DNA of 64,000 nucleotides from Bradyrhizobium sp. AZCC 2262. GTDB lineage: Bacteria; Pseudomonadota; Alphaproteobacteria; Rhizobiales; Xanthobacteraceae. Location of the stretch: positions 1,178,001 through 1,242,000 of the forward strand of contig NZ_JAZHRT010000001.1 of assembly GCF_036924535.1 (NCBI RefSeq), read 5' to 3'. Below the pieces are notes generated by a model. The model had not been told where the DNA came from, did no database searches, and saw only the letters and a program-made list of their open reading frames with translations. Shown one piece after another: positions 4,236-58,891 of this stretch. Positions within the stretch are counted from its first letter, which is position 1. Each line of letters starts with the position of its first letter. The position numbers and the translations under genes were made by a program.

Positions 4236-4970
4236 ATGGCAAGAACATCTCGAGAAACCAGAACGATCCGTCCCACTGCGCGGCGCAGGCCGGCAAAACC
4301 CGTGGCGGAAAGGGCAGCCAGTCAGCGTCGCCGGGCAGCCGGCGAGACGCCTTATCATCACGGCGATCTGCACGACGCCTTGCTCGCCGCCGCCGAGCGG
4401 GTGCTGGAACGCGACGGGTTGCCGGGCCTGACCTTGCGGGCCGTGGCGCGCGAGGCCGGCGTGTCGCATGCCGCGCCGACCCATCATTTCGGCGATCTCA
4501 CCGGGTTGCTCAGCGAGCTCGCGGCCATCGGCTTCCGCCGCTTCAACGAGGCCATGATTGCAGCTCGCAATAGTGAAACCCATCCGCTGATGAAGGGGAT
4601 GGCCAACGCGAAGGCCTATGTCGCCTACGCCCAGGCGAGTCCCGGCATGTTCAGTCTGATGTTCCGCAACGAACGGATCGACATGACGCGGCCATCGCTG
4701 CACGAGGCGGCGACCGCCTCCTTCGAGGGCCTGGCGAGTGCGGTCGGTGCCGGCCGCAACGAAAGACTCGCTGGCGAGGCGCTGGAGGCAATCTCGCTCG
4801 ACCAGGCCGCGGCGATCGCGCGCGCGTGGTCGCTGGTGCACGGCTTCGCCTCGCTGCTGCTCGACGGGCGGCTGAAGGACATCCTGCACCGGCTGCCGGA
4901 AGGCACCGGCGTCGATCAACTGCTACATGCGATGCTGCTCTCGACCGTCGCCCGGCCGCCGGGGGCTTGA
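4236..4970 (+). CDS. TetR/AcrR-family transcriptional regulator (WHG-type C-terminus)
   Basis: 244 aa from ATG 4236, which follows AAGGAG by 5 nt; the upstream in-frame extension runs through the operator and is unlikely to be translated. A basic N-terminal tail precedes the TetR helix-turn-helix at about residues 47-90 (LRAVAREAGVSHAAPTHHFG). The C-terminal part resembles the WHG ligand-binding domain. It is probably a repressor of itself and of the divergent carotenoid oxygenase through the two sites at 4144 and 4198. The ligand may be a carotenoid- or lignin-derived aromatic; that is inference from the neighbour. Confidence 0.9.
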   Translation: MARTSRETRTIRPTARRRPAKPVAERAASQRRRAAGETPYHHGDLHDALLAAAERVLERDGLPGLTLRAVAREAGVSHAAPTHHFGDLTGLLSELAAIGFRRFNEAMIAARNSETHPLMKGMANAKAYVAYAQASPGMFSLMFRNERIDMTRPSLHEAATASFEGLASAVGAGRNERLAGEALEAISLDQAAAIARAWSLVHGFASLLLDGRLKDILHRLPEGTGVDQLLHAMLLSTVARPPGA

Positions 4971-5115
4971 TACTCCCTGCCGGAGCTTGGGTTAGCAAGC
5001 GGGCAGGGCGCGCAGTTCTCGCGCTACATTGCGCCGAAATGCCAGGGCCCGCAGCAGTGGCGCTTGCAAACGATGGCGCGGCGCCGGCCCACAATGGTCC
5101 GCTTGCGACCGTGCG

Positions 5116-5667
5116 TCAGGGCTTTACATACGACCAGCCCTTCTCCTGCAATTCCATCACGCGCACAACGCCGGACTGCACGATTTGCGCCTGCGGAATG
5201 ATTGGAATGTCCTTGCCCTCCGCCTTGCGCATGTTTTCCTGGGTATTGCCGCAGGCTTTGAAGGAGATTTCCGGCGTGCTCAACGCGAGCACCTCGATCC
5301 GCGCCTTCACCGGCGAGGTGTCGTCACGCAGCATGTGCAAGCCAGGGCCGAAAGTGACGACCTCGATCGACACCTTCTCGCCGAGGCCCTTGTAGTATTG
5401 CGCGACGTTCGTCGCATTGTTGAGTGCGAGATTCATCATCGCTGGTTCGTTGGTGTTTACCTGCAGGACAAGGTTGTGCAACTTCTTGTCAGCAACGGCC
5501 TGCTTCTGCGCTGTCGCTTGCTTCGTCGTCGGCGCCGCCGTTGATCGCGCCGCGACGATCTGCGGCCTTGTTGGTTTCTTCGCCGGCTCCGCCGCCGATG
5601 ACGGCGCGAGGATGAGCACCATTACGACTCCCATCGCCGCTCTGACAGCATTTTCAAATTTGATCAT
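5116..5667 (-). CDS. Periplasmic DsrE-like protein
   Basis: 183 aa from ATG 5667, preceded by AAGGGAG; an upstream ATG in frame lacks a ribosome site. An N-terminal signal-like hydrophobic segment (VVMVLILAPSSAAEP) is followed by an Ala/Thr/Gln-rich linker. A DsrE/DsrF-like fold begins at about residue 65 (LHNLVLQVNTNEPAMMNLALNN), with an FKACGNT segment carrying the single likely functional Cys. Cytoplasmic DsrE proteins handle sulfur; exported versions are uncharacterised. It follows the VasI-like gene by 38 bp and is the last gene of the TAXI cluster, so it is probably co-transcribed with it. Confidence 0.8.
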   Translation of the reverse strand: MIKFENAVRAAMGVVMVLILAPSSAAEPAKKPTRPQIVAARSTAAPTTKQATAQKQAVADKKLHNLVLQVNTNEPAMMNLALNNATNVAQYYKGLGEKVSIEVVTFGPGLHMLRDDTSPVKARIEVLALSTPEISFKACGNTQENMRKAEGKDIPIIPQAQIVQSGVVRVMELQEKGWSYVKP

Positions 5668-5705
5668 CACGCATCTCCCTTGAACGGTTCCCTGTTCGTT
5701 GCCCC

Positions 5706-6365
5706 TTAGTTGCGTGGCGCGGCAATGGCTTGCGGCCATCTGCATGCCGCAGCCAGCTTTTCTCGCACCATCTTCAATCCGCCGATCGAAAAATTCCCCT
5801 CGCGGGCGACACCCGTTCGGGGAGAAAGGCGAACGGTGACCTCGCCCTCCTCGGGGAGCGACTGCAACAAGCGCACGACATCGCCCTTGAATGCGACGCC
5901 GGTTCCAAACGATGGCGCGCCTGCCGCAGCTTGCACCGGCTGATCGCCATTGACGCGATAGAACATGGTGTAATCTCCGCCGCGGCCAGAGATGGCCGGT
6001 CCGGCGACCACAAGTTCAGTGCGGCCATTGCGACAGTAAATGGAGAGCTGCATCGCGGAGCCTTCCGTGCCGCCACGAGACGGTGTGACGGCCACGACGA
6101 GCGGCATATAGTCCACAGGCGATGTCGTCTCGCTAATAGTCCAGTTGCCGACCGCCGGCGCCGGGCGCGCCGGCTGCGCGGGATGCGCCGGCTGCGCCGG
6201 GGGTCCTATGCTGCGCGACAGCCGGTCCAGGCATTTCAGCCGCTCTGCGCGCTCCATCAGGGAACAGTCGCGAAGTTGCGCCAATGGATCGCTCGTGCCT
6301 TGTGCGAGAGCAATTCCACTCGCCAGCTCGAAGGCGACAAACAGGGGGATCGCAGCGGTCCTCAT
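5706..6365 (-). CDS. VasI/TagO-like secreted protein
   Basis: 219 aa from ATG 6365, which overlaps the TGA of the preceding TAXI gene (ATGA), so translation is coupled. A signal peptide ends near ALAQG. A short conserved block (LRDCSLMERAERLKCLDRLS) and a Pro/Ala spacer follow. The main domain carries features of type VI secretion-associated VasI/TagO proteins: WTISETTSPVDY, a CRNGRTELVV strand, YRVNGDQP, and a final GLKMVREKLAAACRWP. No type VI secretion genes are in the window, so its role is more likely tied to the adjacent binding protein. Family assignment is by pattern only. Confidence 0.7.
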   Translation of the reverse strand: MRTAAIPLFVAFELASGIALAQGTSDPLAQLRDCSLMERAERLKCLDRLSRSIGPPAQPAHPAQPARPAPAVGNWTISETTSPVDYMPLVVAVTPSRGGTEGSAMQLSIYCRNGRTELVVAGPAISGRGGDYTMFYRVNGDQPVQAAAGAPSFGTGVAFKGDVVRLLQSLPEEGEVTVRLSPRTGVAREGNFSIGGLKMVREKLAAACRWPQAIAAPRN

Positions 6366-7390
6366 TGCGATGCCTGCTTTCCACGCGCCTGACGATCCAG
6401 CCATGCCTGCGCCGATGAGGAGCGGGCTAATCCGGGGACCGTCGCAGCAAGGTTGATCGATTTCCATTTCGGGTCGAAGCCAGGCGCCTGCAGCCTGTCG
6501 ATCCGGGAAAAGAGGTAATCGACAAAGCGCGCGACGCGCTGATAGCGATTCGACTGCGCCGGCCAATTGAAGGCGACCAGAACGGTCGGCACCGCGATCG
6601 TCGACACGCGTTCGCCCTGCTTGATCAGATTGGGATATTCGGTCGGCTCCAGCACTGCGGGAAGATAGTAATCCTCGAACTTGCTCTCGTAAGCGACCGG
6701 AAGGAACTTGAAGCCGGGCTCCCAGCGCCCACGCAGAAAAGCGTCAACCGGCTTCGAGGTGATGAAAACGACGGCGGCCATTTCACCCTTGCGCATCTGC
6801 TCCAGCGCGACCTGATGCGGAATGAAGGTCTTTTCGACGTTGATGCCGAGGCGGCTGAAGATCAGCGGTCCCGAATAGGCGGCGGCCGTGCCCAGGGTGT
6901 TGAAATTCACTTTCTTGCCGGCGAGATCCTGCAGGCTGGCAATCTCCGGCCGAACGAAGATATGAAGTTCCGACGGGAAGAGGTTGAGAAGGTAGACGAT
7001 CCGGTGCTGAAGCTCAGGCGCCTGAACTTTGTACTCTTCGAGCGCGTCGGAATTGATGATCGCCATGTCGACGCCACGCAGATAGAGCAGCGCATTCATA
7101 TTTTCCGTGGCCCCTCGGGTCACGATTGGCAGCACAAGCATGTTCGGCCCGTCGTCGACGACGCGGGCGATTTCGGTAGCAAGACGGATGGGGGCGCCCT
7201 CCAACAGGCCGCCGGCGATGCCGACCGTCCAGGCATTCATCCGCTCTTTTTGTGTCTCGTACGGTGAGCCACTTCGCAGCGGGCGGGCGCTCTGTGCCTG
7301 TGCGTCGCCATCGGCAAGCTGAGGTGCCAGCATGACTGGCGCCAAAATGCTGAGCACGAGCAATAAGTGTGATCTAAAAAAAGTACTCAT
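6362..7390 (-). CDS. TAXI-family TRAP-type solute-binding protein (locus A)
   Basis: 342 aa with a signal peptide (cleavage near AQAQS). It has the TAXI arrangement: VGIAGGLLEGAPIRLATEIARV, then GATENMNALLYLRGVDMAIINSDAL, then LAGKKVNFNTLGTAAAYSG, and IAVPTVLVAFN near the C-terminus. TAXI proteins normally deliver substrates to fused TRAP permeases of the DctQM type. No permease gene is present here. It starts at ATG 7390 behind AGGAG. Upstream, 74 bp away, is the coiled-coil/Sel1-like gene; downstream the VasI-like gene overlaps it. A paralogue lies at 54132-55598. It may act as a periplasmic sensor or chaperone rather than in transport. Confidence 0.88.
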   Translation of the reverse strand: MSTFFRSHLLLVLSILAPVMLAPQLADGDAQAQSARPLRSGSPYETQKERMNAWTVGIAGGLLEGAPIRLATEIARVVDDGPNMLVLPIVTRGATENMNALLYLRGVDMAIINSDALEEYKVQAPELQHRIVYLLNLFPSELHIFVRPEIASLQDLAGKKVNFNTLGTAAAYSGPLIFSRLGINVEKTFIPHQVALEQMRKGEMAAVVFITSKPVDAFLRGRWEPGFKFLPVAYESKFEDYYLPAVLEPTEYPNLIKQGERVSTIAVPTVLVAFNWPAQSNRYQRVARFVDYLFSRIDRLQAPGFDPKWKSINLAATVPGLARSSSAQAWLDRQARGKQASQ

Positions 7391-7464
7391 CTACAAACTC
7401 CTCTTGCGTCAAACTCGGCTTTCAACTGCCATACCCCAGCTGCCCGATGAAGATGTAAATCATC

Positions 7465-9372
7465 TCACCGAGACAGCGCGTCGAATCGATTCTTGGCCTC
7501 CTGAATTCCGCCGGCATGAGCCTTGGCATAGAGTTCGCGCGCTTTCGTCACTTCGCCGCGCGTTCCGTATGTCCCCCATACGGACAGAATGACCGGATCA
7601 TACGTCTCCGCGAGCATGAAGCTCGCCTGTGCGCTGCCCGTCTCAGCAGCGCGTTCGAGTACGATCCGTGCCGCACCGACATTGCCCTGCGCAAGCAGCG
7701 TGCTGGCGCGCGCCATCAACCTGGCCGCTTCCGGATTACGTTGCGCGTCTGAGGACACTGCCTGTACTGAAGCGGTTGTCTCGGCAGCGAGCGTCGCCTG
7801 GGCGATTGAGCTGTTTGCAATCGGCCCAGGCGCAGCGCGCGCATCGATCGCGCGCTGCTTCATTGTCGGTCCGCGCGATATTGTCTTGGTCCTGTCGCGC
7901 TCGTGCTGCAGCTCTGCCGTCATCTGTTCCGCAGTCTGCTTGAACTTCGCCGCATCATCGCGCGCCTTGGTCAGCTGCGCTGCGTTCGCCTGGATTTCGC
8001 GGCGAGCGATCGCGAGTTCGCGCGACAGCGCCTCGGCGCTTTCGCGCTCTTTCTGCTGTTCGGCCGCGGTTCGTTCCGCAGTCTGCTTGAACTGCGCCGC
8101 ATCATCGCGCGCCTTGATCAGCTGCGCTGCGTTGGCCTCGATTTCGCGGCGCGCCATCGCGAGTTCGCGCGACAGAGCCTCGGCACTGTCGTGCTCTTTC
8201 TGCTGTTCCGTCGTCGTCCTTTCCGCAGTCTGCTTGAACTTCGCCGCATCGTCGCGCGCCGTGGTCAACTGCGCTGCGTTGGCCTCGATTTCGCGGCGCG
8301 CCATCGCGTGTGCGCGCGACAGTACCTTGGCCCAGTCGCGCTCTTGCTGCAGCTCCGCCGTCGTCCTTTCCGCAGTCTGCTTGAACTGCGCCGCATCATC
8401 GCGCGCCGTGGTCAGCTGCGCCGCGTTGGTCTCGATTTCGCGGCGCGCCATCGCGAGTTCGCGCGACAGAGCCTCGGCACTGTCGTGCTCTTTCTGCTGT
8501 TCCGCCGCCATCCTTTCCGCAGTCTGCCTGAACTGCGCCGCATCATCGCGCGCCTTGGTCAGCATCGCCGCGTTGGCCTCGATTTCGCGGCGCGTCGCCG
8601 CCAGCTCGTTCGCCAGCGCGGCTCCGCGAGCGCGTTCCTCTTGAAGCGCCTGGCGTTGTTGCTCGGTGCTTGCCGGCTGTTCCTGTCGTGCGGCGGTGGC
8701 CTCCAGTGCGAGACCCGTTGTTTTTTCGCGCTCGTGTTCGAGCGATTGTGCGGACTTCACAGCGGAAGGCGTCCGCAGTTGCAGATTGGATCCGTCGATC
8801 GCGTTGCGAGCCTCGGCAGCTTCATTCGCCAGAATTTCTGGACGCGGCTCCTTCTCCAAAAATTGTCCCGCCTCCGGCGCGGCCGCCTTCACCGCCTGCT
8901 TGAGCTGCGGAGTTTTCTGCGCTCCGTGATCGGCTTTGGTCTGCTGTTGTTGCCCAAATAGGTCGGTCTTCCGCGGCTCCGGACCCGCCAACCGGGTCGC
9001 TTGCTCAACGGTCTGCCCGCCGATCGCGCCGACGATATCCTGCTGACCGGCGTTTCCCGCCACCCAGGTGGCGACCTCGGCGCGGAAATACAGGCCGGTC
9101 AGCGCCGCCGCAATGAACGCTGCGGTGATGGAGAAAGCTGCAAATCGTCGACGCGCACGGCCGGCGTGAGAGGAGGGGTGCGATGGTTGAAGATATCGAT
9201 CGTGCGGCAGCGGCTGCCAATGCGTCGGCGTGATCTTGCTTGGCTCGCCGTTTTCACTGATCCATTCGCCCGCCTCAGGCGACCAGTGCGCGACATCAAA
9301 AATCCCACACACATCATCCTCAAGGATGATGGCCTCTTGGCCCTTGGGTGCGCTCTCGATCGTTTGGCGCAT
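7465..9372 (-). CDS. Membrane-anchored coiled-coil protein with Sel1-like C-terminus (locus A)
   Basis: 635 aa. The N-terminal ~75 residues are cytoplasmic and include DVAHWSPEAGEWISENGEPSK-like sequence. One membrane helix follows at about 78-97 (FSITAAFIAAALTGLYF). A long periplasmic region comes next: a variable linker and then about five 49-residue coiled-coil repeats built on REIEANAAQLTKARDDAAQF. The last ~85 residues (ARLMARASTLLAQGNVGAARIVLERAAETG...TYDP) form a Sel1/TPR-like helical module. The same module ends the protein at 55625-56425. Both genes stand directly upstream of a TAXI gene. It is likely the structural anchor of an envelope complex; function unknown. Confidence 0.82.
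   Translation of the reverse strand: MRQTIESAPKGQEAIILEDDVCGIFDVAHWSPEAGEWISENGEPSKITPTHWQPLPHDRYLQPSHPSSHAGRARRRFAAFSITAAFIAAALTGLYFRAEVATWVAGNAGQQDIVGAIGGQTVEQATRLAGPEPRKTDLFGQQQQTKADHGAQKTPQLKQAVKAAAPEAGQFLEKEPRPEILANEAAEARNAIDGSNLQLRTPSAVKSAQSLEHEREKTTGLALEATAARQEQPASTEQQRQALQEERARGAALANELAATRREIEANAAMLTKARDDAAQFRQTAERMAAEQQKEHDSAEALSRELAMARREIETNAAQLTTARDDAAQFKQTAERTTAELQQERDWAKVLSRAHAMARREIEANAAQLTTARDDAAKFKQTAERTTTEQQKEHDSAEALSRELAMARREIEANAAQLIKARDDAAQFKQTAERTAAEQQKERESAEALSRELAIARREIQANAAQLTKARDDAAKFKQTAEQMTAELQHERDRTKTISRGPTMKQRAIDARAAPGPIANSSIAQATLAAETTASVQAVSSDAQRNPEAARLMARASTLLAQGNVGAARIVLERAAETGSAQASFMLAETYDPVILSVWGTYGTRGEVTKARELYAKAHAGGIQEAKNRFDALSR
7867..8608. repeat. 147-bp tandem repeat inside the coiled-coil gene
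   Basis: Units recur at exactly 147 bp: a gagttcgcgcgacag-type anchor starts at 8014, 8161, 8308 and 8455, with a degenerate copy near 7867. Each unit encodes 49 residues, exactly seven heptads, so copies can be gained or lost without breaking the coiled-coil register. Copies differ by scattered substitutions. Outer boundaries are approximate. Confidence 0.85.
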
Positions 9373-9589
9373 AAAAACGCCTACTCTGATGGTACTATTT
9401 TCTGAAGTAATACCGGACTAACACTTCTCCATTTCCAATAGGAAAGCCTATTCCACGCGCAGCACAGCCTCAAGCACCCAGAAGTTGGGAAACGCGGTGG
9501 AATCACGCGCGAATTCGTCCGTGGTTTTACGGGCATGTTCGTCGGCGTCGGGATGGACCTGCGCGGCGACGATGCCGATGGTGTGCCGC

Positions 9590-9943
9590 TCAGCAACCCC
9601 TGCAAATCTTGGTTTGTCGCGCGAGCCTGGCGTCGGCCTCGGCGTCTTCGTTGGGCTGCCGCGTCCACTCGTCGTAGCGCGCTTTGACGTCTGACCCGGC
9701 TGAGGCTTCCCTGGGCGGGGCGCCATTCAGCGGGCCGAGAATGATCTCGCGATTGCGGGCTGTCTTTCGCTTTTGCGGCCGTTTTTCCTGGCCCGGTTCG
9801 TCGTTTGCCGTCGGCGCATCGCCCAACCCGTCCCAGGCGATCGGCGCGCCCGGGGTCGTCGAGGTGGCGCAGCCGGTGCCGGACGCGCAGCAGCCGGAGA
9901 GGGCGGCGCCGGCAACCAGCAGAACCATGAATCTCGTTAGCAT
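9590..9943 (-). CDS. Small putative lipoprotein, unknown function
   Basis: 117 aa. The N-terminus has a hydrophobic stretch ending in a lipobox-like LSGCC, so it is probably lipidated at the first Cys and outer-membrane or periplasm attached. The rest is hydrophilic and rich in Lys/Arg/Glu (GQEKRPQKRKTARNREIILG), ending in KICRGC with a Cys pair. I recognise no characterised family; the composition resembles genus-specific rhizobial lipoproteins. It lies 217 bp upstream of the coiled-coil gene on the same strand. Confidence 0.65.
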   Translation of the reverse strand: MLTRFMVLLVAGAALSGCCASGTGCATSTTPGAPIAWDGLGDAPTANDEPGQEKRPQKRKTARNREIILGPLNGAPPREASAGSDVKARYDEWTRQPNEDAEADARLARQTKICRGC

Positions 9944-10051
9944 CGTTGCTCCGGTGTGGCCGACGTTAAAACCCGTGACGTGAGAATATCAGGCACTGAA
10001 GGCTGTAGCTTTGACGTTATTACGGCGAAAACACGCCGGCCGCGGGCTGCA

Positions 10052-10687
10052 TTAGCGCTTTGCAAGGCTGACGGCGGAGCCCTTTTCACCGATCACCTTC
10101 ACTTCGTCCTTCCCGCACTTGAAATCACGGGCAAATTCGTCCGCCGCCTGGCGCGCGAGCTCGTTGGCATTGCGTTTGGCCTGGCCGTCGATATAGGCGA
10201 CATGGCAGACCGGCCCCGGCGGCAGCCGCGTCACGGCTAGCATCGGTTTTGAGGTCGGGCTTCCCGCCTTGTCCGGGTCGTTGTTGTCGGCGATCAGCCA
10301 GCGCTGAATGATCGCGAACGGCTTGCCATCCACCGCCCGCCATTCGACGGTGGGAGCGGTGGAATTGAAGGGGGCAAACCAGGCCTCCGCGGCCGGCTCC
10401 TTGCTGGCGGCTATGCGGTCGGGTCCGACCGAGACGGTTTGGCGCAGATCGTCCTCGCTGATCACCACCACCAGCCCCGATTTGCCGGGGCACACCTGGG
10501 TCGTGCTGCCGTTGTCCCCGGGCTTGCCGATGGTGCGGCAGTCCTTCGCCTCTGATGATGTGTAGCTGCTGCTGAATGTTTGGGCGCTGGCCGGTGAAAT
10601 CAGGCCAAATGCAGCCGCGAATAGTGCCGTGGCGGCCGGCACGATGGCTTGCCGATGGGAAACACGTTTCATCTGCACTTCTCGCAT
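10052..10687 (-). CDS. Secreted protein of unknown function
   Basis: 211 aa from ATG 10687, chosen because GGAGG lies 4 nt upstream; a start 9 codons earlier lacks a ribosome site. A signal peptide ends near PASAQT. The mature part contains CRTIGKPG, VCPGKSGLVVVISEDDLRQTVS and a C-terminal half with VCHVAYIDGQAKRNANELAR...FKCGKDEV. Four Cys in the mature protein could form two disulfides. No domain recognised. It is transcribed away from the SET gene at 10825. Confidence 0.75.
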   Translation of the reverse strand: MREVQMKRVSHRQAIVPAATALFAAAFGLISPASAQTFSSSYTSSEAKDCRTIGKPGDNGSTTQVCPGKSGLVVVISEDDLRQTVSVGPDRIAASKEPAAEAWFAPFNSTAPTVEWRAVDGKPFAIIQRWLIADNNDPDKAGSPTSKPMLAVTRLPPGPVCHVAYIDGQAKRNANELARQAADEFARDFKCGKDEVKVIGEKGSAVSLAKR

Positions 10688-10824
10688 GGAACCTCCAGGA
10701 TCAGACGTGCGCAATCTGGGGAAGGTTCATGGCAAAGGTGCGAAACACCTGACATTGCCGCGGAATCGTTCTAGAAGAGCGGCTCGCAATTCCGTCGTCC
10801 CGAGCGTGCAGTCAATCAGTCGTC

Positions 10825-11589
10825 ATGCCCTCCATACCTTCGAATAAGCCTTATCGCGTCGGCCGCTCCCCTACCGGACTTGGCCTTTTCGCCACCAAAC
10901 CGATCAAGAAGGGCACCAAAATCATCCGCTATTTTGGGCCGCTGCTGGATTCGAAGAAGAAAAAAGACGACGCGATCGAGAACAAATACCTGTTCGAGCT
11001 GAACGACCGTTGGACCATCGACGGCTCGGTGCGCAAGAACATCGCCCGTTACATCAACCACGCCTGCAAGCCCAACGCGGAATCCGACGTTCGCCCACGC
11101 AAGCGCAAGGTGTTCATCCGCGCCATCAAGAGCATCGAGCCGGGCGAGGAGATCAATTACGATTACGGCACCGATTATTTCAAAGCCTATCTGAAGCCGA
11201 TCGGCTGCAAATGCGCGGCCTGCGAAAAGAAGCGCAAGAAACAGCGCGCCGAGGCGCGGGCGGAGAAGGCCCGGCTGAAGGCGAAGGCCGAGCGGAAAGC
11301 GCTGAAGAAGGCGGAAAAGCTGGCCAAGGCCAAGGAGAAGGCTAAAGCGAAGCTGAAGGAAAAGGCTGAGCGGAAGGCGAAGGTGACGCTCAAGCTGAAG
11401 GGCCATTCGCTCAATGGCAAGTCGCTCAACGGCAGGTCGCTCAACGGCAAACGTCTGAACGGCAACAGCCGCGTCAGGGTTGCCGGCAAGAAATCCGTCG
11501 GCAGCAAGCAGCCGGCTTCCGCGCCTGCTTCGGTCCTTGAGGCTCAGCCCGCTGCTATCGCCTTTGAGGCTCAGCCCACCGCCATCTGA
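10825..11589 (+). CDS. SET-domain protein with basic C-terminal tail
   Basis: 254 aa. A compact SET domain covers residues 8-120: GRSPTGLGLFATKPIKKGT, then the SAM/substrate motifs ARYINHACKPN (about 74-84) and NYDYG (111-115). A post-SET-like Cys cluster follows (C128, C130, C133). SET proteins methylate lysines. The C-terminal half is a highly charged Lys/Ala/Glu helix followed by four five-residue repeats (LNGKS, LNGRS, LNGKR, LNGNS) encoded by near-identical 15-bp units. The target is unknown; the basic tail suggests nucleic-acid or chromosome association. Confidence 0.88.
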   Translation: MPSIPSNKPYRVGRSPTGLGLFATKPIKKGTKIIRYFGPLLDSKKKKDDAIENKYLFELNDRWTIDGSVRKNIARYINHACKPNAESDVRPRKRKVFIRAIKSIEPGEEINYDYGTDYFKAYLKPIGCKCAACEKKRKKQRAEARAEKARLKAKAERKALKKAEKLAKAKEKAKAKLKEKAERKAKVTLKLKGHSLNGKSLNGRSLNGKRLNGNSRVRVAGKKSVGSKQPASAPASVLEAQPAAIAFEAQPTAI

Positions 11590-11593
11590 AGTC

Positions 11594-11917
11594 TCATCCG
11601 CCGGTCTTGTGCACCGATTTCGGCAGCAACGAATCGCCGAAGTCGACCGCCGAGCGTTGAATGATCGCGCCTGTTTCATCGACCACGACGCGAAACCGCC
11701 GGTGTTCGGAGAAGAAGGTGAGGCGGTGCCGGCCGGAGTCGGCATCGACCCCACGCTCGGCAAGGCTCGTGATCCTGCCCGCGCGCATCTCTTCCTGCAG
11801 CAAAGACGGCGCCAGGCCGAGACCTTCCGCGACGATGGAGGCGTCGATCTGCACAGTGCCATCTTCGAACTCGATCGGTTTCATGAGTTGCACCTGAGTC
11901 TTCGTTGCGGCGGTCAT
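11594..11917 (-). CDS. DUF6522-like protein
   Basis: 107 aa from ATG 11917, which overlaps the stop of the Rrf2 gene (ATGA), showing coupling. The sequence (IEFEDGTVQIDASIVAEGLGL...LLQEEMRAGRITSLAERGVDAD...HRLTFFSEHRRFRVVVDETGAII) is consistent with the DUF6522 family. It has no membrane segment. Context with an NsrR-like regulator and a truncated globin points to a role in nitric oxide or nitrite response. Biochemical role unknown. It is convergent with the SET gene, 4 bp apart. Confidence 0.75.
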   Translation of the reverse strand: MTAATKTQVQLMKPIEFEDGTVQIDASIVAEGLGLAPSLLQEEMRAGRITSLAERGVDADSGRHRLTFFSEHRRFRVVVDETGAIIQRSAVDFGDSLLPKSVHKTGG

Positions 11918-12342
11918 GCGTGCGCCGGGCTCCGCATGGCCGGCGCGGGATAGGCGCACTCCGCCAGCGTCGTGGCGTCGAGCTCGCGCATGAAGGCTTC
12001 GCGGGCGGCAGCGAGTTTTGCTTTCAACCGGCAGCGCGGCTTCAGCACGCAATTGCCGCCATCCTCGCGAAAACATTCGACCAGCGGCGGCCCTTCCAGG
12101 GCGCGCACCACTTCGCCGATGGTGATCGACTGGGCGGGGCGGGCCAGCGTGAAGCCGCCGCCGACGCCGCGCTGGGTCGAGATGAAACCGCTATCCGCGA
12201 GGTCGCGCACCACCTTGGCCAGATGGTTGCGGGAAATGCCGAACTCGGCCGCGATCTCGTTGGTGGCGAACGACCGGCCCGGTTCGCCCGCCAACCGCAT
12301 CAGCGCGCGCAAGGCAAAATCCGTGAATGACGTCAGGCGCAT
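11914..12342 (-). CDS. Rrf2-family (NsrR-like) iron-sulfur regulator
   Basis: 142 aa. An N-terminal winged helix (TSFTDFALRALMRLAGEPG...IAAEFGISRNHLAKVVRDL) is followed by the wing TQRGVGGGFTLARP. Three Cys in CFREDGGNCVLKPRC (about residues 90-104) would hold an Fe-S cluster, as in NsrR, which senses nitric oxide. It is divergent from the truncated-globin gene, with a perfect 27-bp palindrome at 12388-12414 between them. It probably represses the globin operon and perhaps itself. The next gene, DUF6522, overlaps its stop codon. Confidence 0.9.
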   Translation of the reverse strand: MRLTSFTDFALRALMRLAGEPGRSFATNEIAAEFGISRNHLAKVVRDLADSGFISTQRGVGGGFTLARPAQSITIGEVVRALEGPPLVECFREDGGNCVLKPRCRLKAKLAAAREAFMRELDATTLAECAYPAPAMRSPAHA

Positions 12343-54131: not shown

Positions 54132-55598
54132 TTATCTGAAGTCAGGCTGTCTCCCAGAGAAGCCGCTGGACGGACGATCGGTAGTTGAGATGCCTTGAGT
54201 GGCGCCGGGAGGCGGAGTAGGGCCGGAGAACCAATTCCCCCAACCTTCCTCGCTTGCTCGGTGGCAGGCGTCCGGGTCGCCGCGGTAGCCATGGCGCTCG
54301 CATTCTGTCACCTCGCCTCGCTCGGCCAAGGTACCAATTGTCCGCCTTGCAGGCTGCGATCGGCGGGGCGAGTGGCGGCGAGGGGCAGCTTGCGTTGCTG
54401 AGGCTTGGTCGCGGTCTCGAACCTTCTTGGCGCCTTCCTGCGGGCCAGCCTGTGCCCGTGCGTTCCTTGCCGCCTCCCAAGCGTGAAATTGCTGGAATAG
54501 TGCTTCCTTGTCGGCCTCTGACTGAATGTTGGCAGCGGCTGGGTTCTCTTGCAGGAATGCCTCAAAGCGTCGCTTTACCGGTTCGACGCCGTGTTTGTCG
54601 AGCCATTGCTGCGCGAGCGGCAGGCGATCCCAGCCGGCAAGTGGTGCCGCCAGGGAAACCTCCTTCCACTTGGGATGAAAGGGCGGGTTCTGCAAAGTGG
54701 CGAATTTCGTGAAGAAGGCATCAACAAACAGAGCAAGCTTGCGACTGCGTTCAGTGTCGGGTGCCCAATTGTACGCTGCAAGCACCGACGGCACTGCGAT
54801 TGTATCCACCGTCTCCCCGTCGGGAATCAGGCTCGGATAGTCCTTTGACGTCAGCGTCGCCGGCAGATAATCGCTCTGCAGGGCCTTGGAATAGTCCACC
54901 GCAGCGAGATGAAAGCGTCCGTCATTGTTGAAGGTCGTGACAGACACATACGGCTTACCGCCAACCACGATGACGGCGTCGAGCTCGCCCTTCTTCAATT
55001 TTTCCATTGCGATCCGCTGCTCGATATAGACGAAGTTCGCCTTGATCCCGAGCCGCTCGAAAACTGTCAGTGCCGTCACAAACGTGCCGCCATTGGGCAG
55101 GTCGACGCTCACCGTCTTGCCTTCGAGATCGTTCAGACTCTTGATGGTCTTTGGTGCAATGACCTGCATCTCCTCATGGTAGAGCTTGGTCACATAGGTG
55201 AACTGCTTCTTGATGCCGTTGGCGAAGCCCTTCTTCTCGAGGTAGTCGAGCGTGTCGGCGCGCACGATGCCGAGATCGACGCCCTTCAGGAAAAGAATGT
55301 CGGCGACGCTCTGCACCGAACCTCGACCGATGATCGGCAGGACGCGCAGGTTACCGTCGTCGTCGAGCACGGAAGCGAGGTCGGCACCGAACTGCACATA
55401 GGTGCCGCCGATCGTACCGGTAAGCAGCGTGACCGTATTGGCGTTCAGCGCCTTCTTGGTCGAGACCGAGCCGAATTTGAAGATCGCCTTCAGGCTGTCG
55501 CTGACTTTGGCGGGGTTATAGTCGATCGGTTCAGCATGGGCCGCAACGCCGGAAGCTATCATGACCATCGCGGCAAACATTCTAAGGTACTGAGGCAC
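54132..55598 (-). CDS. TAXI-family TRAP-type solute-binding protein with C-terminal extension (locus B)
   Basis: 488 aa from GTG 55598, which has GGAGG 4 nt upstream and is followed at once by the signal peptide (ending AAHAEP). The TAXI core has VTLLTGTIGGTYVQFGADLASVL, GRGSVQSVADILFLKGVDLGIVRADTL, LEGKTVSVDLPNGGTF and IAVPSVLAAYNW. After about residue 375 it has an Arg/Ala/Pro-rich extension of roughly 100 residues, unusual for the family. No permease gene lies nearby. Its partner, the Sel1-like gene, is 26 bp upstream. It resembles the locus A protein at 6362-7390. Confidence 0.88.
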   Translation of the reverse strand: MPQYLRMFAAMVMIASGVAAHAEPIDYNPAKVSDSLKAIFKFGSVSTKKALNANTVTLLTGTIGGTYVQFGADLASVLDDDGNLRVLPIIGRGSVQSVADILFLKGVDLGIVRADTLDYLEKKGFANGIKKQFTYVTKLYHEEMQVIAPKTIKSLNDLEGKTVSVDLPNGGTFVTALTVFERLGIKANFVYIEQRIAMEKLKKGELDAVIVVGGKPYVSVTTFNNDGRFHLAAVDYSKALQSDYLPATLTSKDYPSLIPDGETVDTIAVPSVLAAYNWAPDTERSRKLALFVDAFFTKFATLQNPPFHPKWKEVSLAAPLAGWDRLPLAQQWLDKHGVEPVKRRFEAFLQENPAAANIQSEADKEALFQQFHAWEAARNARAQAGPQEGAKKVRDRDQASATQAAPRRHSPRRSQPARRTIGTLAERGEVTECERHGYRGDPDACHRASEEGWGNWFSGPTPPPGATQGISTTDRPSSGFSGRQPDFR

Positions 55599-55624: not shown

Positions 55625-56425
55625 CTAGTTCTGAAATTGAGTGAGACGCTGTTGCGCGGCGGCCGAGCCAAAGCTGGCGGCCTTGCGGTACCATTCGCGC
55701 GCCATCACGGGGTCGGGTGTGATGCTTCGCGTATCGCGCACGCCGAGCACAGCCGGATCATAGGTCTGTGCCAGCAGGAAAGCCGCAGTTGCGTCCTGTG
55801 CATTGGCGGCACGTTCAAGCAGCAATCGCGCCGCGGCGATGTCGCCGCGCGTCAGCATGCTCTTGGCGCGTGTCATCAGGGCTGCCAATGTTTCGGCATC
55901 GAGCGTTTTCGACGGCGCGGCGGCTTCATTCCCTGCACGTGCGGCCGCGACCTGACCCTGCGGGACTGGGTCTGATACGCGAGCGGGATCTTCCAGCAGT
56001 ACTTGGCGCACAGCGGGCTGGTTCGAGGCGCCCTGCGTCGCTGATTGATCCGCTGATTGATCCCTGGACGCGCCGCCCGTGGGTGCTCTTGCTTTGTCGA
56101 TAAGATAGCGCGTGACATCGGAGTTGAAGACAAGGGCGCGCGTGACATCGGAATTAATTACCGCGGCCAGGATCACGAACGCCAAAACCGCCAGTCCACC
56201 AGCCACCACCCGCGTCAGGATGCTTGTCCGTTGGCTTGCCACAAAAGGCGCAAATTCCTGCGGGGCAGGCTCTCTCTGGAGACCGGACAGAAACAATGGA
56301 ATGGGATCATCCGTTGACGGCCCGGACGTGTAGGATGCGGGCTGCGAATCCCCTCGCGGTTCGTCGAACACCAGGGCATTCGAACCCTGCGACGGGCAAT
56401 GTGTCGTCCGCTCCATGGCGCTCAT
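55625..56425 (-). CDS. Membrane-anchored Sel1-like protein (locus B)
   Basis: 266 aa from ATG 56425, with AGGGAAG upstream. A cytoplasmic Pro/Ser-rich N-terminus precedes one membrane helix (VVAGGLAVLAFVILAAVI). Directly after it NSDVTRA and NSDVTRY are a short duplication. The periplasmic part is a Gln/Ser-rich linker and a Sel1-like C-terminus (ALMTRAKSMLTRGDIAAARLLLERAANAQDATAAFLLAQTYDP) that aligns with the end of the 635-aa protein at 7465-9372. It is 26 bp upstream of the TAXI gene and clearly co-transcribed with it. Confidence 0.8.
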   Translation of the reverse strand: MSAMERTTHCPSQGSNALVFDEPRGDSQPASYTSGPSTDDPIPLFLSGLQREPAPQEFAPFVASQRTSILTRVVAGGLAVLAFVILAAVINSDVTRALVFNSDVTRYLIDKARAPTGGASRDQSADQSATQGASNQPAVRQVLLEDPARVSDPVPQGQVAAARAGNEAAAPSKTLDAETLAALMTRAKSMLTRGDIAAARLLLERAANAQDATAAFLLAQTYDPAVLGVRDTRSITPDPVMAREWYRKAASFGSAAAQQRLTQFQN

Positions 56426-57774: not shown

Positions 57775-58293
57775 TCAGCCCTTGCGCAGGAACACGTAGT
57801 CCGCGGAGTAGGGCGCGTTGCGCCAGGTGCCCGCCTTGTCGCAGTCGCCCTCGAGTTTGCCACCCGCCGTGTTGATCCGCTGCACTGTGGTGACGCCGGA
57901 GAGGATGCCGGTGCCGCGCCCCGACGTTACCATAAGCTTCAGCCAGGGGATATCGTTCGCTGTGGCGCCAGGTGCGTTGCCGACGGCCTTGCCGACGACG
58001 GCGCTGGAGTCGATGTGTTCCCAGTTCGGCCCCGCATAGTGCCGGCCGACGGTCTTGCCATCGAGCAGCAAGGTCGCGATCGGCTCGCGGAATGCCCAGG
58101 CCAGTTTGCCGTCGCTGGCAGCCTTGCATTCGTAGACCTGCGCGCCCTCGGCGTGGAGTGTGAGCACGATCGTCTCGCCGGGCGCCGCGATGGCGTCGGG
58201 AAGCGGTGTCTGTGCGGAGACGCTCAAAACTGACGCCGATGACAAGAGCAGAGCGAGCGCGGCATTCCGGACAATCGGCATCATAAAATCCAT
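57775..58293 (-). CDS. DUF3455 protein (copy 1)
   Basis: 172 aa with a signal peptide (ending VSAQT). The DUF3455 domain starts LPDAIAAPGETIVLTLHAEGAQVYECKAASDGKLAWAFREP and ends with NTAGGKLEGDCDKAGTWRNAPYSADYVFLRKG. Members are exported proteins of unknown function. A paralogue follows on the same strand with the gene upstream (58385-58891), so this is a tandem duplication; the two proteins agree over most of their length. Confidence 0.9.
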   Translation of the reverse strand: MDFMMPIVRNAALALLLSSASVLSVSAQTPLPDAIAAPGETIVLTLHAEGAQVYECKAASDGKLAWAFREPIATLLLDGKTVGRHYAGPNWEHIDSSAVVGKAVGNAPGATANDIPWLKLMVTSGRGTGILSGVTTVQRINTAGGKLEGDCDKAGTWRNAPYSADYVFLRKG

Positions 58294-58384: not shown

Positions 58385-58891
58385 TCAGCCCTTGCGCAGG
58401 AACACGTAATCCGCCGAGTAGGGGACGCTTTCATAGGTGCCTGCCTTGTAGCAGGCGCCATTGAGCTTTCCACCGACCGTGTTGATCCGTTGCACTGTCG
58501 TCACCGGACCGAGAACACCGCTGCCGCGCCGGGAAGCCACTGCGAGCTTCAGCCAGGGAATATCCATCGCGACCGCGCCTGGGGCGGTGCCGACGACCTG
58601 GCCGACCACTGCGCTGCCGTCGCTGTACTCCCAGTTCGGTCCGGCATAATGCCGGCCGACCGTCTTGCCGTCCGACAAAAGCGTCGCGATCGGTTCGCGA
58701 AACGCCCAGGCGAGCGTGCCGTCGGCGCCGGTCTTGCATTCGTAGACCTGCGCGCCTTCGGCATGCAGCGTGAGAACAGCGGTTTCACCCGGAGCTGCGA
58801 TAGCCTCGGGAATTGCTGTCTGGGCGGTCGCGTTGACGAGCGACCCGATGAGAAAGATGGCAGTGAGTACGGCGTTCTTGGGGAACGACAC
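58385..58891 (-). CDS. DUF3455 protein (copy 2)
   Basis: 168 aa from GTG 58891, with a signal peptide (ending ATAQT). It is nearly superimposable on the copy at 57775: same APGETxVLTLHAEGAQVYECK start, AWAFREPIATLLxDGKTVGRHYAGPNWE centre and AGTYESVPYSADYVFLRKG end. It lies 91 bp upstream of copy 1 on the same strand. Function unknown. Confidence 0.9.
   Translation of the reverse strand: MSFPKNAVLTAIFLIGSLVNATAQTAIPEAIAAPGETAVLTLHAEGAQVYECKTGADGTLAWAFREPIATLLSDGKTVGRHYAGPNWEYSDGSAVVGQVVGTAPGAVAMDIPWLKLAVASRRGSGVLGPVTTVQRINTVGGKLNGACYKAGTYESVPYSADYVFLRKG

Follow-up and report, generated by a model that had tools for sequence, protein, structure and literature searches.

What does a TAXI-type binding protein do where no transporter adjoins it? 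TAXI proteins are periplasmic binding proteins of a family that normally serves nutrient uptake. The question is raised by a locus in Bradyrhizobium sp. AZCC 2262, the genome of which is a single contig of 9.48 megabases and carries at C1:1178001-1242000 the 64,000-nucleotide stretch analysed here (the window). At window positions 5116-9372, four minus-strand open reading frames (ORFs) encode a Sel1-like coiled-coil protein (A), a TAXI-type protein (B), a VasI-like protein (C) and a DsrE-like protein (D), with B and C joined by an ATGA overlap, and a second Sel1-like/TAXI pair (A2 and B2) lies further along. The initial annotation had described this four-gene set and the second pair, and we confirm both. 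Our preferred answer, which we consider about evenly poised between right and wrong, is a non-transport envelope module in which the periplasmic TAXI binding protein would be read by a Sel1-domain scaffold.

The evidence that carries this reading is the recurrence of the pair on loci selected through their TAXI gene. Named genome contigs were scanned with a TAXI alignment, which yielded 366 relatives; the best 80 loci were kept and include Bradyrhizobium, Methylobacterium, Microvirga, Hyphomicrobium, Rhodomicrobium and Pelagibius, together with Denitrobaculum and Arenibaculum of the Rhodospirillales. Among these best 80 of 366 loci, 68 of 82 strong TAXI genes have a TAXI-associated Sel1-like domain (SEL) encoded in their stretch, 66 of them within 2.5 kilobases (kb); ten of the 14 without it have a short flank, Cache fusions making up four of these ten. 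Across 288 genomes of the class other than our own, with the best 6 or fewer or the best 15 or fewer candidates scored per genome, strong SEL matches (E up to 1e-20) occur in six, all of which belong to the eight genomes with a strong orphan TAXI (E up to 1e-80). All seven strong SEL places in this sample adjoin a TAXI gene, with the two genes on opposite strands in two cases. Some weaker SEL matches were taken for ordinary Sel1 proteins; these (E 1e-18 to 1e-13) occur without a strong orphan TAXI nearby in nine other genomes and at one additional place in G371. Over 135 distinct pairs, SEL lies upstream of TAXI in 75 and on the same strand in 127.

Within the Bradyrhizobium sp. AZCC 2262 genome itself, three of five SEL copies adjoin a TAXI gene, and a fourth copy, at L047, has flanking genes in common with locus L147, where the relative does have an adjoining TAXI. 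No SEL match was found in ten control stretches (173 kb) around other NMT1_3 genes of this genome. Chance neighbourhood is ruled out by the counts on loci picked regardless of their neighbours and by this SEL-free control. Furthermore, TAXI distances correlate with SEL distances (Mantel r 0.69; highest of 999 permutations 0.057), a result that demonstrates joint inheritance and not contact. The pairing, which the initial annotation had called reproducible from the two copies in the window, thus keeps its position across the family and also outside the order. A search of titles and abstract openings, with most subscription papers outside its scope, turned up no description of it; PMC7327166 and PMC12826043 were rejected as candidate Sel1-TAXI papers, since in their accessible text the 'taxi' matches were TaxID and 'taxis'.

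The Pfam Sel1 family (cut-off 30.7 bits) has no match in A and scores A2 at 22.4 bits. A class profile (A3) built from 20 TAXI-paired SEL domains resembles solved Sel1 structures (E 2.7e-25 against 8sxq by profile comparison), and its alignment displays a clear signature, GD[IV]xxARLxxERAA ... [TS]YDP ... A..WY..A. A hidden Markov model (HMM), SEL2, was trained on SEL domains from our own genome and from L108-L207. Sixteen SEL proteins, several of them selected for length, were scanned for other domains. Four (L297, L308, L315 and L325) contain an N-terminal AAA_22 ATPase above its cut-off, followed in L297, L308 and L315 by a hydrophobic stretch; L308 additionally has a SPOR domain, and L289, L290 and L322 have five Sel1-repeat matches each. 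A hydrophobic stretch precedes the SEL domain in many of the shorter SEL proteins. The Sel1-like end of A2 also gives a below-cut-off match to the NCBIfam phenylmercury resistance protein MerG (E 4.9e-5).

The four-gene cassette is conserved as well. Cassette loci were chosen by B alone in 60 relatives and 248 family members, our own genome counted, which gave 46 B matches of at least 60% identity (one in our own genome, then 26, then 19); 44 were examined, two in G032 being left out. In all 44 loci, C follows B on the same strand; the distance is within 100 base pairs (bp) in 42 of them, 438 bp in one and 528 bp in another. A is found no more than 300 bp upstream of B in 33 loci and anywhere in the stretch in 38, including five loci (L109, L121, L124, L125 and L153) in which it lies 1.5 to 5.2 kb downstream of B. 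D is present in the stretch in 42 loci, on the same strand in 31, and 36 of the 44 have all four genes. Since the placement of A varies and the flanking genes differ between loci, the set appears to move together rather than being frozen at one place. Two genomes labelled as belonging to the same class and another order (L235 and L236) contain all four genes in the same gene order. As a side observation, a protein belonging to one sequence cluster occurs near four of 24 same-genus cassette loci (L109, L122, L124 and L129); its L122 member is HlyD-type by Pfam and adjoins a C39-peptidase ABC exporter.

B has the TAXI fold. B and B2 exceed the Pfam NMT1_3 cut-off of 27 bits (31.9 bits for B and 65.2 bits for B2 in its 520-residue form), and both stay under the NCBIfam TIGR02122 cut-off of 84.35 bits (34.2 bits for B and 83.3 bits for the same form of B2). 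As B falls under the latter cut-off, we call it a divergent relative that is TAXI-type by fold and Pfam only. The group is common, as a protein search that scored 8000 candidates gave at least 6461 relatives of B with E up to 1e-10. Relatives of B go by the names of transporter subunits in the databases.

No match to DctM adjoins B or B2 in tblastn searches with three DctM sequences of our own genome, nor does a fused DctQM gene. The initial annotation had remarked on the missing TRAP permease in the window, and the same holds more widely: TAXI genes do not usually sit beside one, since tblastn of the probed loci found a single adjacent DctM (L172, checked with Pfam), where a second TAXI-cluster protein flanks the permease and no SEL is present in the stretch. 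Partial DctM matches lie several genes off in four loci. Our own genome has 22 DctM matches, and of 27 places compared in it only those at 7271457, 7274729 and 2889521 adjoin one. Gene context hence supports the earlier suggestion of a TAXI fold used without transport; the ligand-responsive or scaffold complex proposed along with it is something we continue to infer.

Residue patterns at the binding site differ between the two forms of the system. In the TAXI protein VcGluP, loss of Y45 or Q93 lowers glutamate affinity most, and neither residue is universal (78% and 54% of 59 TAXI; PMC11574862, accessible text). We transferred the VcGluP positions by profile alignment and family alignment to 105 entries, some from named loci that duplicate contigs of family genomes, which come down to 96 distinct sequences, and for 80 of these a SEL domain is encoded within 2.5 kb. 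Among these 80, Tyr45 is present in 71, Gln93 in 52, Arg93 in 24, Glu125 in 68 and Gly156 in 76. B2, with Tyr and Arg at positions 45 and 93, retains most of the glutamate site, Arg replacing Gln93. Judged by these residues, the ligand of the TAXI protein in the two-gene form is probably still acidic or amino-acid-like. The Y45/Q93 pair is absent from B, and all 44 cassette B proteins have, without exception, Pro45, Asn93, Ala156, Ala157, Phe200 and Ser203, a pattern indicating that the cassette-form site was rebuilt once and then held.

Features of the two loci in the window (window coordinates)
Feature	Position	Strand	Description
Gene A	7465..9372	-	635 amino acids; a short head at the N-terminus, a single transmembrane stretch, a long coiled coil and a Sel1-like domain at the C-terminus
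Gene A, transmembrane stretch	about 9079-9153	-	judged by reading
Gene A, coiled-coil array	7892..8594	-	147-bp (49-residue) tandem unit, 4.8 copies, 87% matches
Gene A, TAXI-associated Sel1-like domain (SEL)	7468..7866	-	E 9.5e-44 against the SEL2 HMM, the training set of which included this sequence; signature in class alignment A3
Gene B, TAXI-type binding protein	6362..7390	-	342 amino acids; signal peptide by reading
Gene C, VasI-like	5706..6365	-	reads as exported; four Cys invariant in the family alignment of 15 relatives
Gene D, DsrE-like	5116..5667	-	reads as exported; Cys and His invariant in the family alignment of 15 relatives
Second pair, Sel1-like anchor A2	55625..56425	-	266 amino acids; SEL domain 55631-56008
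Second pair, TAXI protein B2	54132..55580	-	482 amino acids from the called start; longer ORF from 55694

C and D take their provisional names from their families. Pfam VasI (PF11319) has no match in the window C protein and matches seven of 15 family members at E up to 1; of five members checked against the cut-off, one lies above it (L158) and two just under. The structure model of C (predicted local distance difference test score, pLDDT, 75) has no match among PDB structures at E up to 0.001, and the family profile (A4) has no PDB sequence match at E up to 1. The top three PDB rows for the model (E 0.006-0.02) were ignored as overlaps with very large proteins (template modelling score, TM, 0.21-0.25); IalB (3dtd) turns up repeatedly at E 0.03-0.06 (TM 0.49-0.58, normalised by target length), which is no more than a weak hint. 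Likewise, Pfam DsrE (PF02635) has no match in the window D protein and matches 12 of the 15 family members (E up to 1), with one of five checked above the cut-off (L160), and the D family profile matches 1l1s, which we take to be a DsrE-type fold, at E 2e-11. A scan of window positions 4900-9700 for promoters and terminators was uninformative, with 1 promoter site (0.7 expected) and 5 terminator sites (5.2 expected). Two similar tandem minus-strand ORFs (57775-58293 and 58385-58891) of one cluster lie upstream of the second pair, and both read as exported.

TAXI domains also occur fused to other domains. Our own genome encodes two tandem fusions of Peripla_BP_6 to TAXI (L042:6832-9279 and 9563-11998), several relatives of which are named branched-chain amino-acid or ABC transporter binding proteins, and one fusion of a single Cache domain to TAXI (L039:8394-9920). 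Beside one of the Peripla_BP_6-TAXI tandems lies the gene of a guanylate cyclase, the Cache-type region of which scores 44.9 bits against dCache_1 (cut-off 45). In a tree of 207 TAXI sequences, with low support at deep nodes, the seven Cache fusions form one clade and the four Peripla_BP_6 fusions (from two loci) another, both nested among Sel1-paired sequences, and no SEL was found in the stretches of either group. We read the fusions as the replacement of one partner by another, and these other partners point to ligand recognition. A further class of ten TAXI without SEL is nested in the same way. A TAXI class lacking SEL is also seen at L138-L144, and in six of these seven loci the next gene encodes a small-cluster protein with a weak TTHB210-like match (best E 2.5e-4).

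We propose that the periplasmic TAXI-type protein, a venus-flytrap, would dock on the C-terminal Sel1-like domain of its partner, a membrane-anchored or exported coiled-coil protein that would read the state of the TAXI protein and act as scaffold or relay. Elsewhere, an N-terminal AAA ATPase is part of the partner, or a Cache or Peripla_BP_6 domain is joined to the TAXI; in the window cassette, the pair would have recruited C and D, both putatively exported, and its binding site would have been rebuilt. A bolder version, which we regard as improbable, would make Sel1-paired TAXI proteins a class-wide family of envelope sensors, in which the binding protein would recognise a glutamate-like compound, perhaps a peptidoglycan turnover product, and switch a Sel1-domain scaffold that connects to the cell wall or to an AAA ATPase in the cytoplasm. 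On this view, the window cassette would be derived, its ligand being new and two accessory proteins with cysteines having joined it.

Several observations weigh against the proposed envelope module. Adjacency and matching trees are also expected from joint inheritance without contact, and the SEL profiles, being made from domains that neighbour TAXI genes, favour paired ones. Two of the five SEL copies in our own genome have no TAXI beside them, and the TAXI clade at 42-46% identity mostly lacks SEL. The small N-terminal head of A, the part that could signal inward, is present in only 5 of 21 A-type proteins, several of which read as secreted. Three TRAP-linked TAXI proteins of our own genome have, in a loose alignment, Tyr, Tyr and Gly at position 45 and Leu, Met and Ala at position 93, so Gln93 is no divider of transport and non-transport proteins; by these residue patterns, Tyr45 and Gln93 mark neither group. 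Four of the seven Cache fusions have short flanks, so the absence of SEL is firm for three only. Further points on the same side concern the sister clade of the cassette TAXI and the site of B, and each of these favours a different alternative.

The first alternative, unlikely in our view yet the one that survives best, is that B and B2 are orphan receptors that feed a permease whose gene lies elsewhere, be it TRAP, TTT or another carrier, with the Sel1 protein as an assembly or stability factor. The 22 DctM matches would offer candidate permeases in our own genome, and a TAXI protein has been linked to the non-TRAP carrier GltS (PMC12344293, accessible text). In the sister clade (L168-L187), only 5 of 20 loci have SEL within 2.5 kb, 12 of 20 adjoin a TctC-family binding protein, and TctA/TctB-like genes lie near in L177, L184 (confirmed by Pfam) and L187, so relatives of B may serve transport. 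Against this, the sole adjacent DctM is that of L172, with its second TAXI-cluster protein and no SEL, and the TAXI fusions observed are to Cache and Peripla_BP_6 and to no membrane carrier.

Also improbable is a purely structural role, in which the TAXI fold would have lost ligand binding and would help the Sel1 protein, C and D to assemble the cell envelope. B may bind no ligand, as all 44 cassette B proteins have Pro at position 45, Asn at 93 and Ala at 156; the long tandem coiled coil of A, the SPOR domain of L308 and the action of RgsF, a periplasmic Sel1-like repeat protein, in cell-wall growth of Sinorhizobium meliloti (PMC7327166, accessible text) are in keeping with such a role. However, the glutamate-site residues are mostly kept in Sel1-paired relatives, and the site of B itself is invariant rather than drifting. 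Hitch-hiking of functionally unconnected neighbours on essential genes is disfavoured as very improbable: among 20 loci from other genera (L188-L207; L199 checked with Pfam), thrS lies no more than three genes from TAXI in 13 and yidD in 8, and an apparent alaS lies here, but thrS is within three genes in none of 43 B-type loci counted, and the pair persists with flipped order and with differing flanks.

We thus retain the envelope module as the favoured reading. The recurrence of the Sel1-TAXI pairing in distantly related alphaproteobacteria suggests an undescribed non-transport use of this binding-protein family. Conservation of the pairing with a dedicated Sel1-type domain, from Bradyrhizobium to Rhodospirillales, gives reason to doubt the transporter-subunit label for a large group of proteins, and the pair offers a simple two-protein system for asking whether binding proteins gate envelope scaffolds without transport.

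Compared with the TAXI-type TRAP binding proteins VcGluP (VC0430) and TtGluBP, B lacks an adjoining fused DctQM gene and has Pro and Asn in place of their key Tyr and Gln. The TAXI-GltS system of Bordetella pertussis (PMC12344293, accessible text) likewise joins a TAXI to a partner other than TRAP, a link drawn in that work from fusions and the gene context; in that case, the partner is a membrane carrier and transport is proposed, whereas here it is a Sel1/coiled-coil protein. Sel1-type proteins of the Rhizobiales also include ExoR, which is reported to regulate a two-component system of Sinorhizobium meliloti by binding the sensor ExoS, and RgsF of the same species (PMC7327166); the accessible text mentions no TAXI pairing for either, and the SEL domain in the window has a conserved signature of its own. 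In the literature searched, neither a Sel1-domain reader nor a TAXI in a receptor-activating role turned up. The activation of membrane receptors by solute-binding proteins has been termed a widespread mechanism (PMC9602780, accessible text), and the envelope module would work alike, a periplasmic binding protein being read by a membrane protein. The readers described there are chemoreceptors, sensor kinases, cyclic-di-GMP enzymes and Ser/Thr kinases, whereas the reader that we propose here is a Sel1-domain protein.

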